Below are positions 33,970 to 64,000 of a stretch of 64,000 bases of DNA, piece by piece. The notes under the pieces were generated by a model. That model had not been told where the DNA came from, ran no database searches, and saw only the letters and a program-made list of their open reading frames with translations. A program made the position numbers and the translations under genes. The stretch is from Natronomonas marina (GTDB taxonomy: Archaea; Halobacteriota; Halobacteria; Halobacteriales; Haloarculaceae), in contig NZ_CP101154.1 in the NCBI RefSeq assembly GCF_024298905.1, positions 1,612,001 to 1,676,000 of the forward strand, written 5' to 3'. Each line of letters begins with the position of its first letter. Within the stretch, counting starts at the first letter, position 1.

Positions 33970-34509
33970 TCAACACCAGTTCGGGATGCCGTCGCCGTCG
34001 TCGTCGGAGTCCGACCCCGGCGGGAGGTCGGGGTCGGTCGGGGCCGTCCACTCGTTCACCATGAGCGTCTCGCCCTCGTCGTTCTTGAGGATGATCCAGT
34101 AGGTGTCGCCCTCCTCACAGATCGGGTCGAGCACGCCGTCGCTGGCGAACCCGTCGAGGTGGACGTACTCGCCGGCTCGCACTTGTGGCCCGCCCGTCCA
34201 GACGTCGTTCCACGTGATCGTGTTCCCGGATTCGTCCTTGATCACGATGTTCTCGGCGTCGACCACCCTGCCGACCTGGTGAGTGATCTCGACGTAGGGT
34301 CGGTCGTCGGTGTTGTCCGCGCCGCTCGGCTGGTAGTCCTGATCGAACCCGCCGTTCGGGGCCGGGTCCTGGAGCTTCCCCTGGAAGCCGATCGCCATCG
34401 TCGCGACCAGAGCGGCCAGCACGACGGTTATCGACGCCAGCAGCACGACGCCAATGACTGGCGAGATGCCGCGGGCAGCAGCCCTGGACCGATCGGTGGG
34501 TACTCCCAT
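33970..34509 (-). CDS. archaeal type IV pilin-like protein
   Basis: A 179-aa class III prepilin-type protein. Residues about 14-18 hold the PibD cleavage context RG|ISPVIGV (processing before the ISPVIG stretch), followed by a 20-residue hydrophobic helix and a polar, acidic C-terminal domain. The C-terminal tail is an Asp-rich, calcium-loop-like run ending in PNWC. The ATG at 34509 is chosen because a TATA-like element sits 24-35 bp upstream, giving a leaderless message. It is outside the left attachment repeat and resembles the element's own pilin only in the N-terminal helix and overall plan. Confidence 0.82.
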   Translation of the reverse strand: MGVPTDRSRAAARGISPVIGVVLLASITVVLAALVATMAIGFQGKLQDPAPNGGFDQDYQPSGADNTDDRPYVEITHQVGRVVDAENIVIKDESGNTITWNDVWTGGPQVRAGEYVHLDGFASDGVLDPICEEGDTYWIILKNDEGETLMVNEWTAPTDPDLPPGSDSDDDGDGIPNWC

Positions 34510-34532
34510 GCGCGTCCGAACACGGGACGGCC

Positions 34533-34544: not shown

Positions 34545-34758
34545 ACCCATGAGTAGTTTCAGCGTTCGAAAACACCCGGACCGCCGACAGGGTCGACGGT
34601 GCGGCTCGGGGACGTAGCCGCCACGACGGTTGCGGTGCGCGGCGGTGCGGTCGCCGTTCAACCGGGAGTCGTTGACGGACACCCGCGGGTCACCCTCCAG
34701 ACTCGAGTCGTGGTCGTGTCGACGGCGAGGTTGACCGAGATGACACGAAAAGCGTCGG

Positions 34759-34887
34759 TCATGGGCCTCGATCCACCTCCGAGACGCCGGACGGGTCGTC
34801 CTCGCAGACGCGGCGAGGGATACCGTCGGAGGTTTCGGTGGCCATGCGGCCGCCGCACTCGGGGCAGTACCGCCTCGTGGGCGACAC
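34759..34887 (-). CDS. zinc-ribbon microprotein, second gene of a decayed cascade outside the left repeat
   Basis: A 42-aa frame with a GTG start. It has CPECGGRM near the N-terminus and a further Cys in RRVCEDDP, so the second zinc pair is incomplete. It starts inside the end of the partial zinc-ribbon frame at 34878-35009, exactly as the second gene overlaps the first in the intact cascade at 62953-63203. It may be a remnant of a related element. Expression is uncertain. Confidence 0.4.
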   Translation of the reverse strand: MSPTRRYCPECGGRMATETSDGIPRRVCEDDPSGVSEVDRGP

Positions 34888-35009
34888 CACCCGCTGTCGA
34901 GGGCCATGCACTTCTGCGGGAGCGCGGTGATGGTCTCGCCGCAGCATTCACATATCAGTGCTTCGTCAGTTTCCTTAAGGTGAGTATGGGGACGGAGGGA
35001 ATCCAGCAA
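34878..35009 (-). pseudogene. decayed copy of the element's terminal zinc-ribbon gene
   Basis: The frame contains ICECCGETI, then KCMALDSGWCRP. Position by position it resembles the intact gene at 63084-63203 (ICEWCGREI, then DCPALHDGRCQP): all four Cys, the ALxxG and the final C-x-P agree. The N-terminal 12-15 residues and a proper start codon are missing; upstream it runs into the 15-bp repeat at 34986-35000. The frame also lacks the expected stop after C-x-P. This is best read as the stump of a second, related element at the same tRNA site. Confidence 0.5.
34986..35000 (+). repeat. left attachment repeat (attL core)
   Basis: The 15 bases atggggacggaggga are identical to 63269-63283, where they form the 3' end of tRNA-Trp (acceptor strand, discriminator and start of the T arm). 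Identity ends at both sides. The distance to the integrase stop is 60 bp. A short identity block at a tRNA 3' end next to an integrase is the standard sign of tyrosine-recombinase integration. Confidence 0.72.
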
Positions 35010-35060: not shown

Positions 35061-36137
35061 TTAGTCATCGTTGTCGTCCTCCTGTGTTTCTGATAGGTCG
35101 AGTGTCTCCGCGACGTTCTGCCGCCGCTCTTCGAACTCCTCGCCCTGGTCAGCGGCGTCGTAGTACCGTCGGATCGTCGACGGTGCGGCGTTTACCCGCG
35201 TGGCGACGGTTTCGATGTCGAGACCCTGGTTCAGTTGCCAGGTGATGCTCCCGGTCCGAATCGCGTGCGGACTCCGGGAGGACGGGCACTTGCTGGCGTG
35301 ACTACGCTCCGTCCACTCACAACTCGGTCGGCGACGGCCGTGGGGACACTCGGTCCAGAGACACGGCTGGGTTGCCTGGTAGCTCCAGGCTCGGAGAGTC
35401 GAGAAGGATTGCCGGCCTTGCCTCCCGGCAAAGAGCGGCTGTCGCCCGTTCTCGTCGCGCTTGTCGGAGCGTTCACGGGCGATGTAGGTGTCTATCGCCT
35501 CGCAGGCGGCCGCTGGGATACCGACCAACCGCTCGCCGCCGGCTTTGTTCTTCAGCGGCGTCCCCGTCGACGGTTGGTGTCTGAAGTGAACGACGCCACT
35601 GTCCGAGTCGTAGTCCTCCAAATCGAGCGCCCGGAGTGATCCCATGCGAGCGCCCGTGTGCCACGCCAGCTCGAGGAAGGCGTGCATCCCAACGCCGAAG
35701 AACTCCCGAGAGTCCCGGAAGAACGACAGCGCGCGCTGGGCGTCGGTGGCCGCCAGCCGTTCGTCGCTGGATTCGGTCTCGGCATCCAGCGACGGCGGCG
35801 AAATCGCGTCCGACAGGCCCTCCTCGACGGCGTCGATCTCCTCGAGATACTGCACGAAGACGCGAATCGTCGATAGGTGGCCCTTGATTGTCGTCGCCGC
35901 CAGGTCGCGGGACCGCAACTGTAAGTCGTACTCGTCGATGTCGTAGGCGCGAAGTTCACCGACAGTCTCGATACCGACGTCCTCGCAGTACTCCACGAAC
36001 GGCGTGAGACGCGAGCGGTAACTCCGGAGCGTCCGGTCGGTCGCATCGGTCTGTCGCTTGCGCATGAACCGCTCCAAAGCATTCCGGACGGACAACTCCC
36101 GAGCGTCTCCGCGACGGTCGTCGCTACTCACGGCCAT
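35061..36137 (-). CDS. int: tyrosine integrase (XerC/phage-type) of the element
   Basis: A 358-aa integrase with an N-terminal SAM-like core-binding domain (about 15-110) and a catalytic domain. Catalytic residues are visible: Arg164 in HTGARMGSLR, His291 and Arg294 in HAIR, and the Tyr pair 325-326 in TIRRYYD. A Cys/His insertion just before box II (Cys259, 264, 273 and 284 in CLWTECPHGRR..PSCEW..KCPSSRSPH) could bind zinc; it is frequent in haloarchaeal integrases. The gene lies at the left end pointing to attL, and should recombine the 3' end of tRNA-Trp with the element's att. Confidence 0.9.
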   Translation of the reverse strand: MAVSSDDRRGDARELSVRNALERFMRKRQTDATDRTLRSYRSRLTPFVEYCEDVGIETVGELRAYDIDEYDLQLRSRDLAATTIKGHLSTIRVFVQYLEEIDAVEEGLSDAISPPSLDAETESSDERLAATDAQRALSFFRDSREFFGVGMHAFLELAWHTGARMGSLRALDLEDYDSDSGVVHFRHQPSTGTPLKNKAGGERLVGIPAAACEAIDTYIARERSDKRDENGRQPLFAGRQGRQSFSTLRAWSYQATQPCLWTECPHGRRRPSCEWTERSHASKCPSSRSPHAIRTGSITWQLNQGLDIETVATRVNAAPSTIRRYYDAADQGEEFEERRQNVAETLDLSETQEDDNDD

Positions 36138-47752: not shown

Positions 47753-48147
47753 AGTGAAATCACTCCCGTATGGACCGCGATTGCCGCGTTGCTCGAGACC
47801 GTGAACAGCCAGAACCCGACGACGAGGCCGCGAACCTGGTGTCCGAGGCCCGCATCGACTCTCCCGACCAATCGAGCGGCGCCGAAGCCGACCGAGACCG
47901 CGACTACCTGCGCCGCGAACAGCGCCGGCCAGCCGCCGAGCGAGAGCCAGCGCACTGCGCCGAGGCCGACCTCGACAGCCGGGCCTTCGACGGCAACGAG
48001 CTGCGTCAGCAGGATGTCGAGCGGGACCAAGACGAGCGCGCACAACTCGGCGACGTAGAGCCGCCTCCGAGTACCGGCCATCTCGAGCGCGCTCACGCCA
48101 TCTCCCTCCTGGTCCGCCAGCAGGAACGGGTCAGGCGTCGGGGCCAT
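47749..48147 (-). CDS. multi-span membrane protein
   Basis: A 132-aa protein with three hydrophobic helices (about 33-50, 64-90 and 107-127). It overlaps the surface-protein gene by 4 bp and the upstream pilin-like gene by 17 bp. A second Met at residue 23 (MAGTRRRLYVAELC) is an alternative start at 48081. Its place between pilin and spike genes suggests a platform or anchor function. Confidence 0.55.
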   Translation of the reverse strand: MAPTPDPFLLADQEGDGVSALEMAGTRRRLYVAELCALVLVPLDILLTQLVAVEGPAVEVGLGAVRWLSLGGWPALFAAQVVAVSVGFGAARLVGRVDAGLGHQVRGLVVGFWLFTVSSNAAIAVHTGVISL

Positions 48148-48610
48148 CCCACTCCGTGAGCGTCGCGGACTCGTCGCCGGACTCGGAGACCCACACCAGC
48201 CGCACCGAGTCGTCGCTGTCCACGTCGACCGCCATCGACGAGCCAGCCGTCACGTCCGCCGTCGTTGCGGCGCACGTCCCATCGTCGCCACCGTCCCACG
48301 GCTTCGAGGCCGACCCGTCGGTGACGTTCAGGTTGACGGGGTCGATGGTCTCGCCGCTCTCGTGCGAGATTTCGAGCTGGCCGTCGCCGCCGAGCGAGCA
48401 GTCGGCGCCGGTCGTCCCAGGCGAGTAGTCGGTTCCGAATCCAGCCTGCGGGCCGGACGACTGCACCTGCTCGCCCAGTCCGAGGACGAACGTCCCGATG
48501 ATGGCTGCCAGGATGACGGTAATCGCAACCATGAGGATCACGCCGATCACCGGCGAGACCGCACGGTCGTCGCTGCTGTCGGTCGATTCGAGCAGTTGTC
48601 GGAGCTGCAT
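48131..48610 (-). CDS. type IV pilin-like protein of the element
   Basis: A 159-aa archaeal prepilin. A short polar leader ends in DDRA|VSPVIGVILMVAITVILAA, the PibD-type processing site and N-terminal helix. The mature domain is small, acidic and contains two Cys. The host's PibD would be needed. ATG 48610 is chosen; an upstream GTG (48616) would add two residues. The presence of a pilin subunit in the operon with an ATPase and membrane proteins is suggestive of surface filament or attachment. Confidence 0.78.
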   Translation of the reverse strand: MQLRQLLESTDSSDDRAVSPVIGVILMVAITVILAAIIGTFVLGLGEQVQSSGPQAGFGTDYSPGTTGADCSLGGDGQLEISHESGETIDPVNLNVTDGSASKPWDGGDDGTCAATTADVTAGSSMAVDVDSDDSVRLVWVSESGDESATLTEWDGPDA

Positions 48611-48661
48611 CGTCACGGCCCGCCCGGGACTCGAACCCGGATCGCAGCACCTGCCGCGGGC

Positions 48662-59815: not shown

Positions 59816-60421
59816 ATGAGGCTGGAGGCAACTGGTAAACCAGATGAATACAAGGTCTGGATGACCGATCAGGAGCTCGAGGAGCTACGTCGGGCCGCGG
59901 CAAGACACCGCGACGATCTGATTATTCAACTCGGGGGCTACGTCGGCCTCCGAGCCTTCGAGATACCGCAGATCAAACCGAAGCATATCAAGCGGACAGA
60001 AGACGGTGACCATTATCGGCTTCGTGTTCCAGAGGGTAAGGACACCACCGGGAACGGAGGGAAGCCTCGAGACGCATACCTCCCGCAAGACGTCGAGGGC
60101 GACATTCACAGATACCAAAACGCAGAGGCGATCAATCCAGGGCAGCCGCTCGTAGATTTGACTGAACGCGCTGTCAGGGATGTCGTGAAGCGAACAGCGA
60201 TTAGCGCAGCGGAAAAGACTGGGGACGAGGATTTTCGATACGTCAGTAGCCACGATCTCCGTCGACGGTTCGCTCAACGACTGCTCGTGGATCGGCAGAT
60301 GAACCCTCGTGTAGTTATGCAGGTAGGTGGGTGGGACTCGTTCCAGGCGATTGAGCCATACCTGAACGCACCGACCCCGCAGGTCGTCAACGAGGCCTTT
60401 GAGGAGGCTGAGATTTCATGA
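59816..60421 (+). CDS. catalytic-domain-only tyrosine recombinase
   Basis: A 201-aa tyrosine recombinase with no N-terminal core-binding domain. The full active site is visible: Arg46 in GLRAFEI, Lys75 in EGKDT, His146-x2-Arg149 in HDLRRRFA, Trp173 in GGW (the usual second His/Trp) and Tyr182 in IEPYL. Its size matches the small stand-alone recombinases of haloarchaeal elements that carry out inversion or resolution. It is distinct from the 358-aa integrase. The gene is followed 109 bp later by the inverted-repeat segment at 60530-60751. Confidence 0.83.
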   Translation: MRLEATGKPDEYKVWMTDQELEELRRAAARHRDDLIIQLGGYVGLRAFEIPQIKPKHIKRTEDGDHYRLRVPEGKDTTGNGGKPRDAYLPQDVEGDIHRYQNAEAINPGQPLVDLTERAVRDVVKRTAISAAEKTGDEDFRYVSSHDLRRRFAQRLLVDRQMNPRVVMQVGGWDSFQAIEPYLNAPTPQVVNEAFEEAEIS

Positions 60422-62666: not shown

Positions 62667-62956
62667 CGTCCGTCACCTCCTGATTGCTGACCGTCGAAAT
62701 CTCTCGGGTCGCCGTACCACCGAATCCGCGAGTATTCGGCGGGGTCGAAGCGGTGTGCTGTGATGTCGCCGCCGCAGCTACACCTGGAGACGGGCGCCGG
62801 CGGGTTGCACCACCGCTTGCCACACTCGAGGCAGGTGAACAGCCAGGTCTTGCAGTCGTTCTCGAGGTCGTGTTCTTTCTCGGGGTTCGGCGGAAGCCCC
62901 TCGCCACCCTCTCGGATGAAAGCGGGATCAGAACGCTGGTGCGACCTGCGGTTCAT
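62663..62956 (-). CDS. zinc-ribbon protein
   Basis: A 97-aa protein with Cys pairs in FTCLECGKRWC and SRCSCGGD (four or five Cys), probably a zinc ribbon, between a basic N-terminus (MNRRSHQRSDPAFIREG) and a Arg/Asp-rich C-terminus. The ATG overlaps the upstream stop by 4 bp. Function unknown. Confidence 0.6.
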   Translation of the reverse strand: MNRRSHQRSDPAFIREGGEGLPPNPEKEHDLENDCKTWLFTCLECGKRWCNPPAPVSRCSCGGDITAHRFDPAEYSRIRWYGDPRDFDGQQSGGDGR

Positions 62957-63087
62957 CCTGAAATCACCTCGCAGCCGCACTCGCCACACTCGTAGACGCA
63001 GTTGTGATGGCCGTTCGCGGTGACGGTCGACCGACGCTCGACGAAGGCGAGCGAGCCGCCGCAGGTCGGACAGTCGTCGAGCGTCAC
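62953..63087 (-). CDS. zinc-ribbon microprotein
   Basis: A 44-aa protein with a GTG start: DDCPTCGGSLAFVERRSTV, then YECGECGCEV, two C-x2-C pairs. The start overlaps the upstream gene by 4 bp (GTGA) and the end overlaps the next gene by 4 bp. A decayed homologue appears at 34759-34887. Confidence 0.62.
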   Translation of the reverse strand: MTLDDCPTCGGSLAFVERRSTVTANGHHNCVYECGECGCEVISG

Positions 63088-63203
63088 GGCTGACACCTCC
63101 CGTCGTGGAGCGCCGGACAGTCCTGAGTGTCGTCCTGAATCTCCCGGCCGCACCACTCGCAGATGTGTGTCAGGAATGTGGTGGTATCGCTCTCAACTGC
63201 CAT
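63084..63203 (-). CDS. zinc-ribbon microprotein, first gene of the right-end operon
   Basis: A 39-aa protein: HICEWCGREIQDDTQDCPAL then DGRCQP, with four Cys spaced 2, 11 and 8 apart. A Shine-Dalgarno-like ggaggtgg lies upstream and a TATA-like tract at 63254-63263. The homologous partial gene at 34878-35009 suggests this gene type sits next to the tRNA junction in related elements too. Confidence 0.62.
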   Translation of the reverse strand: MAVESDTTTFLTHICEWCGREIQDDTQDCPALHDGRCQP

Positions 63204-63268: not shown

Positions 63269-63283
63269 ATGGGGACGGAGGGA
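63269..63283 (+). repeat. right attachment repeat (attR core)
   Basis: The same 15 bases as 34986-35000. Here they are the terminal 14 bases of tRNA-Trp (acceptor strand plus part of the T arm) and one base beyond, so integration leaves the tRNA intact. Confidence 0.72.
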
Positions 63284-63449
63284 TTTGAACCCCCGATCTA
63301 CTGATATCTCCGGTGTGCGCCTCGGTCCTCCAGAGGGTCGTCAACGCGGCGCGATGATCAGTCGGCCGCTCGGTATATCAGTCTGGAGTCTCGTCACCGG
63401 GCGCGTGGCCTCTGGAGTCAGCCGCCATGCCTGGCTTGGCCACGTCCCC
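63270..63449 (-). tRNA. trnW: tRNA-Trp (CCA) with intron of about 106 nt
   Basis: The mature tRNA folds well: acceptor GGGGACG with CGTCCCC and discriminator A; D arm GCCA/TGGC; anticodon stem GCTGA/TCAGT with loop C-T-C-C-A-G-A; T arm GGGGG/CCCTC around TTCAAAT. CCA is not encoded. The intron (about 63306-63411) follows the base after the anticodon, the canonical archaeal site. It contains C/D-box-like GTGACGA and CTGA, as in haloarchaeal tRNA-Trp introns known to guide 2'-O-methylation. Confidence 0.93.
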
Positions 63450-63530
63450 GCACCCGTGAGTATTTCCGTTCCCCTCAAAGGGGTTTCGGTTCGCCGGACC
63501 CCACTTGTGTCCGGCGCCCGAAACGGCGGT

Positions 63531-63860
63531 ATGGACGAGGCGATTCCGGTGACGGTTCTGGACGGCGGGACCGAGACGACGCTCCGGGTTTCGGAGGGGG
63601 CCGTCCTCCGGGACGCGCTCCTCGATACGGGATTCGATGTCTACGGACGAGTCTCGCGCCGTGTCAACTGCGGCGGGCGGGGTCTGTGTGGTACCTGTGG
63701 CGTCCGGGTTCGAGAGGGGACGCCGGCGCCCGAGCAGTGGCACGACGCGGCCGCCGAGCGGTGGGGCTACCCGCGGCTGTCGTGTCAGGTCAGAGTGACC
63801 GAACCGATGACCGTGGAGTTGGTCGAGAAGGTGGTCTGGGGCCAGTTGCTGCCGGACTAG
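63531..63860 (+). CDS. 2Fe-2S ferredoxin
   Basis: A 109-aa plant-type ferredoxin. Cluster ligands are visible: Cys in VNCGGRGLCGTCGV (C-x5-C-x2-C pattern) and the distal Cys in RLSCQVRV. The start ATG at 63531 gives the usual beta strand IPVTVLDGG. Electron carrier in the cytoplasm. No partner gene is adjacent. Its stop overlaps that of the next gene on the other strand. Confidence 0.88.
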   Translation: MDEAIPVTVLDGGTETTLRVSEGAVLRDALLDTGFDVYGRVSRRVNCGGRGLCGTCGVRVREGTPAPEQWHDAAAERWGYPRLSCQVRVTEPMTVELVEKVVWGQLLPD

Positions 63861-64000
63861 CGGTCGGTGTCACTCCAGGCGCACTCCTGACACTTGTAGC
63901 CGGTGACGAACTCCGTGACGCTGGGCATGTAACCGACCGAGAGGACGTCCCCGCCGCAGTCCGGACAGTCGCGGTCGGCGTCCTCGATGCCCTCGGTGTC
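63857..64000 (-). CDS. zinc-ribbon protein (DUF5795-like), N-terminus beyond the window
   Basis: Only the last 47 codons are in the window. They show DRDCPDCGGDVLSVGYMPSV and GYKCQECAWSDTDR, two C-x2-C pairs around a beta hairpin, matching the small haloarchaeal DUF5795 proteins. The stop overlaps the convergent ferredoxin stop (ctag). The start and the full length cannot be seen. Confidence 0.7.
   Translation of the reverse strand, partial: DTEGIEDADRDCPDCGGDVLSVGYMPSVTEFVTGYKCQECAWSDTDR

Follow-up and report, generated by a model that had tools for sequence, protein, structure and literature searches.

What is the short piece of DNA that lies just outside the left end of the integrative element resident at a tRNA-Trp gene of Natronomonas marina? 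The window analysed, a stretch of 64,000 nucleotides (contig NZ_CP101154.1, positions 1,612,001 to 1,676,000), contains a 28.3-kb element bounded by two exact 15-bp repeats (34986-63283; coordinates are those of the window). The 240 bp beyond its left repeat (34746-34985, here called the stump) probably represent the tRNA-side end of an older, distinct integrative element that used the same tRNA-Trp 3′-end. A preliminary description, made from the letters of the window alone, had already proposed that an earlier element at this tRNA was largely deleted and left its end behind; this proposal is supported by the existence of intact elements, with attachment (att) repeats and integrases, in which a tRNA gene is followed by the same two zinc-ribbon genes. 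The families of these genes, ZR1 and ZR2, were defined in this analysis; each has a single CxxCG motif, and a search of PHROGs gave no confident name for either.

Two decayed zinc-ribbon genes lie outside the left repeat

The stump is made up of three genes, or parts of them, all oriented away from the tRNA site (G and L numbers are our handles for genomes and loci):

34928-34985, minus strand: fossil ZR1, tRNA-proximal part THLKETDEALICECCGETI; 58 bp, also found as the tRNA-Trp 3′ flank in G010, G016 and G001
34878-34927, minus strand: fossil ZR1, distal part TALPQKCMALDSGWCRP; 16.9 bits on its own against the ZR1 profile; stop codon lost, the frame reads through
34759-34887, minus strand: fossil ZR2 zinc-ribbon gene RRYCPECGGRMATETSDGIPRRVCEDDPSGVSEVDRGP
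34746-34756, minus strand: opening codons of a third gene (MTDA..), where homology to the gene downstream of a tRNA-Pro stump ends

The preliminary description had matched the ZR1 frame to the first gene at the right end of the resident element (63084-63203). A profile built from 28 homologues of other genomes, the window excluded, was run against 11,833 stop-to-stop frames from 598 kb, with shuffled frames as a control. The left ZR1 frame scored 30.8 bits (E=8.8e-8) and ranked fourth; the three frames above it were intact ZR1 genes. No shuffled frame scored higher than 10.4 bits. With a score this far above the control, the similarity to the right-end gene reflects homology. The left frame has the family motif C-x2-C-G-x2-I ... 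C-x-A-L-x2-G-x-C-x-P with the exact C-x2-C-x10-C spacing, and is 39% identical to the resident ZR1. The arrangement was thought to repeat that of the right end. This is true of the direction, away from the tRNA site, but the fossil ZR1 touches the att sequence, without the ~65 bp of leader and start codon that precede the motif in the intact gene. No ZR1 start codon lies between att and the motif and the stop is lost too, which makes it a pseudogene.

The second frame had been taken for the counterpart of the second right-end gene (62953-63087), which it is not: against the ZR2 profile the left gene scores 48.3 bits (E=4e-13) and the right-end gene −1.3 bits. The left gene has the ZR2 signature YCPxCGGRM..T..GIPRRxC and lies immediately 3′ of ZR1, the order seen in the complete elements of G178 and G220 described below. 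Its overlap start, usually ATGA or GTGA, reads ACGA, and an in-frame GTG persists three codons upstream. Since the second right-end gene is not a ZR2, the stump and the resident element share the first gene family only, and the idea that the stump is a second copy of the resident kind of element finds no support.

The limits of the remnant also needed correction. Both frames of the preliminary description (34759-35009) exist, but positions 35001-35009, the first nine bases of the ZR1 frame, are resident-element DNA. With the att core at 34986-35000, the right limit of the stump is 34985. On the left, homology reaches past the limit first given (34759): the alignment to the tRNA-Pro stump of the same genome (L023) stops at 34746, 11 nt into the third gene.

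Vacant tRNA-Trp sites fix the boundary of the resident element

The features that delimit the resident element are:

34986-35000, no strand: 15-bp core of attL, a copy of the tRNA-Trp 3′-end
35061-36137, minus strand: tyrosine integrase (PF00589 and PF02899), adjoining attL
62953-63087, minus strand: second right-end zinc-ribbon gene, of a family other than that of the left ZR2
63084-63203, minus strand: intact ZR1 at the tRNA end, 53.6 bits against the ZR1 profile
63270-63449, minus strand: intron-containing tRNA-Trp (Rfam RF00005, 46.7 bits), whose 3′-end is the integration site

The repeat ATGGGGACGGAGGGA is present in exact copies at 34986-35000 and 63269-63283, with no third copy elsewhere in the window when up to two mismatches are allowed. 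The right copy is the 3′-end of the minus-strand, intron-bearing tRNA-Trp, a gene that ARAGORN misses and Rfam detects. In G010 and G016 the site is vacant, and the homologue of 34928-35000 is joined directly to that of 63269-64000. The boundary of the resident element is thereby fixed, and 34928-34985 must have stood next to the tRNA before the insertion. The integrase shares 67% identity with that of a sister element in Natronomonas sp. CBA1123 (G001). The resident element also contains, on the opposite strand, another gene resembling tyrosine recombinases (59816-60421, PF00589); homologues of it occur inside the G178 element and near a ZR1-ZR2 pair in G095.

Part of the decayed remnant is probably shared with relatives

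DNA identity across 34928-34985 is 84% with G010, 78% with G016 and 85% with G001. The first two are chromosomes of the same genus without any element at tRNA-Trp; in G001 the 58-bp piece stands at a contig end and stops at att, and the sister element lies on contig C27. The differences fall at all three codon positions (2/3/4, 3/5/5 and 1/5/3 in G010, G016 and G001, respectively), as expected of a dead gene. The distal half of ZR1 (34878-34927) is gone from all three relatives; in the window, the frame runs on past the 58 bp into the expected second half at the family spacing. Against the ZR1 profile, the four-genome consensus, LKETDRVLICEYCGESI, scores 19.7 bits. To judge from these comparisons, the 58 bp of the relatives read as the same ZR1, more decayed, which would make the fossil older than their split from this genome. 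The preliminary description had held that the sequence should be missing from chromosomes that never had the element. The 58 bp do occur in the two element-free chromosomes, but as what appears to be a decayed ZR1, so that the flank would date the fossil rather than speak against it.

Intact elements and other remnants with ZR1 and ZR2

Homologues of ZR1 were found in 44 of the 146 genomes of the family. A tRNA gene on the same strand lies 100-250 nt upstream of ZR1 at 16 of 28 loci, which is a lower bound given that the tRNAs were those recognised by ARAGORN, which fails on intron-bearing tRNA-Trp. Many ZR2 loci likewise adjoin tRNA genes (Pro, Ile, Tyr, Ala and Thr). Two complete elements proved informative. 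That of G178 has tRNA-Ala, ZR1 and ZR2 at one end and spans ~15.9 kb between 22-bp att repeats; that of G220 has tRNA-Pro, ZR1 and ZR2, and ~18.5 kb between 15-bp att repeats. In both, the repeat is a copy of the tRNA end, and the integrases are 36% and 44% identical, respectively, to the resident one. Given these intact tRNA-ZR1-ZR2 elements, the stump is best understood as the tRNA-side end of an element of this sort.

Decayed element ends are found directly 3′ of tRNA-Trp in G004 (L040), G013 (L037) and G015 (L036), and at tRNA-Pro in this genome and G015. In G013 (L037), G015 (L036) and G014 (L047), the tRNA 3′-end is also present in a second, incomplete copy, which suggests stacked remnants there too. 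A search by DNA for an intact source element in the 146 family genomes returned, as long matches, only the decayed flanks and the genome's own tRNA-Pro stump (C1:961763-961911), which is 76% identical to the left ZR2 region. Around the latter (L023:8786-9908, or C1:960.8-961.9 kb), a stump-like set of small zinc-ribbon genes lies at tRNA-Pro; none of the neighbours listed for it was noticed to be an integrase, and its third gene found no relative in a search of viral contigs. At tRNA-Pro of G015 (L092), a ZR2 gene with in-frame stops is an independent fossil of the same kind. On contig C4 of G118, ZR1 copies at 1838, 15915, 29992 and 53803 are spaced by exactly 14,077 bp twice and then by 23,811 bp; either one element is repeated there in tandem, or concatemers were assembled.

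A proposed history, and its alternatives

An older element would have inserted at the tRNA-Trp 3′-end before this genome and the three Natronomonas relatives separated. Its body, integrase, outer att copy and ZR1 leader would then have been lost by deletion; what remained was part of ZR1, together with ZR2 and the opening codons of the third gene. The resident 28.3-kb element would have inserted later, at the restored tRNA end between tRNA and stump, displacing the stump 28 kb from the tRNA, a case of accretion. Homology, decay, the vacant sites and the limit of the resident element are observed directly; we infer the order of the deletions and the origin of all three genes from a single element. 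The stump is most likely inert now, since leader, start and stop are missing.

Several observations weigh against this history. What remains of the third gene is only 11 nt; no outer att copy was found left of 34986 with up to two mismatches, and no integrase among the adjacent left-flank open reading frames (ORFs) scanned. The comparison with the tRNA-Trp neighbourhoods of relatives that had been recommended did yield the vacant sites of G010 and G016, but not a full left-type element: in 392 order-level genomes no intact element with exactly this ZR1 or ZR2 was found, the best identities to the stump being 53-61% for ZR1 and 73% for ZR2 (a protein read in G403). The fragment of the relatives, taken genome by genome, scores only 1-12 bits against the ZR1 profile.

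This last result bears on the alternative that comes closest, though it is still unlikely, namely that the 58 bp are the ordinary ancestral 3′ flank of tRNA-Trp, that only 34746-34927 derives from an element, and that the ZR1 reading across both is fortuitous. The flank is indeed present in vacant chromosomes, and the G010 copy scores a mere 1.2 bits. Chance would nevertheless have had to produce a full ZR1, in frame and with the exact C-x2-C-x10-C spacing, across the supposed joint; moreover, the N and C halves of ZR1 score independently, and of the 11,833 frames, those that follow the true ZR1 genes in profile score come from this flank in G016 and G001. Less probable still is that an earlier element of the resident type was excised imprecisely and left the stump behind. 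The tRNA, the orientation and the presence of ZR1 are the same, and the sister element does occupy tRNA-Trp in G001, but the left ZR2 is from another family, the two ZR1 proteins share only 39% identity and the gene that follows is different.

Similarly improbable is that ZR1 and ZR2 are chromosomal genes that live beside tRNAs and are not element ends at all. Genes of the ZR2 type, or the gene next to them, do adjoin tRNA-Pro in four genomes, which represent two genera, and there they border the same chromosomal gene. Against this, complete elements that have att repeats and an integrase carry the pair at their tRNA end, both at tRNA-Ala and at tRNA-Pro; several copies are decayed and many tRNA types are used. 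Least credible of all is that ectopic recombination copied the stump from its counterpart at tRNA-Pro in this genome: the 76% DNA identity extends across 150 bp, but the tRNA-Pro stump is without ZR1, a divergence of 24% is too large for a recent copy and the best ZR2 match is in another genome. The end of an older, different element thus remains the preferred explanation.

In intact elements, ZR1 and ZR2 possibly have a role at the tRNA end. A wider conjecture, which we regard as doubtful, is that the pair forms a portable tRNA-side module, common to many integrative elements of haloarchaea that are not otherwise related, where it would serve a function specific to this end (for instance as a directionality factor or an early regulator), and that its fossils mark former insertion sites at many haloarchaeal tRNA genes. 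As it stands, the locus indicates that elements of different types have inserted at one haloarchaeal tRNA-Trp gene on two or more occasions, and that a tRNA site that looks 'vacant' in a relative can itself contain a fossil. Remnants of ZR1 and ZR2 could serve as a simple marker of past insertions at tRNA genes of archaea, and could help in testing the function of tRNA-side zinc-ribbon proteins.

The left flank

The next gene outward from the stump is:

33970-34512, minus strand: type IV pilin gene (PF07790)

Homologues of this pilin occur at unrelated places in G028, G010, G025 and G003, and two lie no more than a few kb from a tRNA; the relatives in G010 cluster 0.5-4 kb from tRNA-Pro. A type IV pilin gene is also present inside the resident element (48131-48616). 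Elements of this sort may often carry pilins as cargo. The preliminary description had proposed that stacking would also explain the pilin at 33970, whose link to the stump is conjectural. The flank at 8-35 kb was considered as the site of a larger lost element, and this was ruled out: the stretch from 19 to 28 kb is ancestral chromosome, collinear with the tRNA-Trp neighbourhood in G007 and G014, 28-33 kb is an oligopeptide ATP-binding cassette (ABC) transporter and there is no third att copy.

Comparison with known systems

Mobile elements are already known to stack at tRNA genes, and the present case is ordinary in kind. A review of bacterial elements sets out a three-step accretion, in which an older element decays and a newer one inserts at the same att site (PMC5704250), and archaeal elements integrated in tandem at a single locus have been noted (PMC8371274). 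As in the bacterial model, the newer element occupies the same tRNA 3′-end and a decayed remnant lies outside its attL; where the newer element is absent (G010 and G016), the remnant borders the tRNA directly. In the bacterial integrative and conjugative elements, integrative and mobilizable elements and cis-mobilizable elements (CIMEs) of that model, the remnant keeps both att sites; the present remnant, in a haloarchaeal host, has lost the outer one. A CIME is a decayed element that retains attL and attR (PMC5704250); the stump does not have both, but resembles a CIME in the loss of integration genes, being 240 bp long with no integrase in the adjacent left-flank ORFs scanned.

The resident element and its sister in Natronomonas sp. 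CBA1123 use the same tRNA-Trp site and have ZR1 as first gene, but differ from the stump in the second gene; they are also larger, at 28.3 kb and, if the contig of the sister contains nothing else, up to ~54.7 kb. Haloarchaeal C(P)XCG zinc-finger micro-proteins (PMC11241148) are alike in being very small and cysteine-rich. ZR1 and ZR2 differ from them in the CxxCG motif, of which each has one, and the paper on the micro-proteins mentions no link to tRNAs, viruses or mobile elements. A further parallel is provided by the intact elements of G178 and G220, which have tRNA, ZR1 and ZR2 in this order at the tRNA end and an integrase of the same kind at the opposite end, but which use other tRNA targets and have ZR1 and ZR2 proteins 35-40% and 55-68% identical, respectively, to those of the stump.
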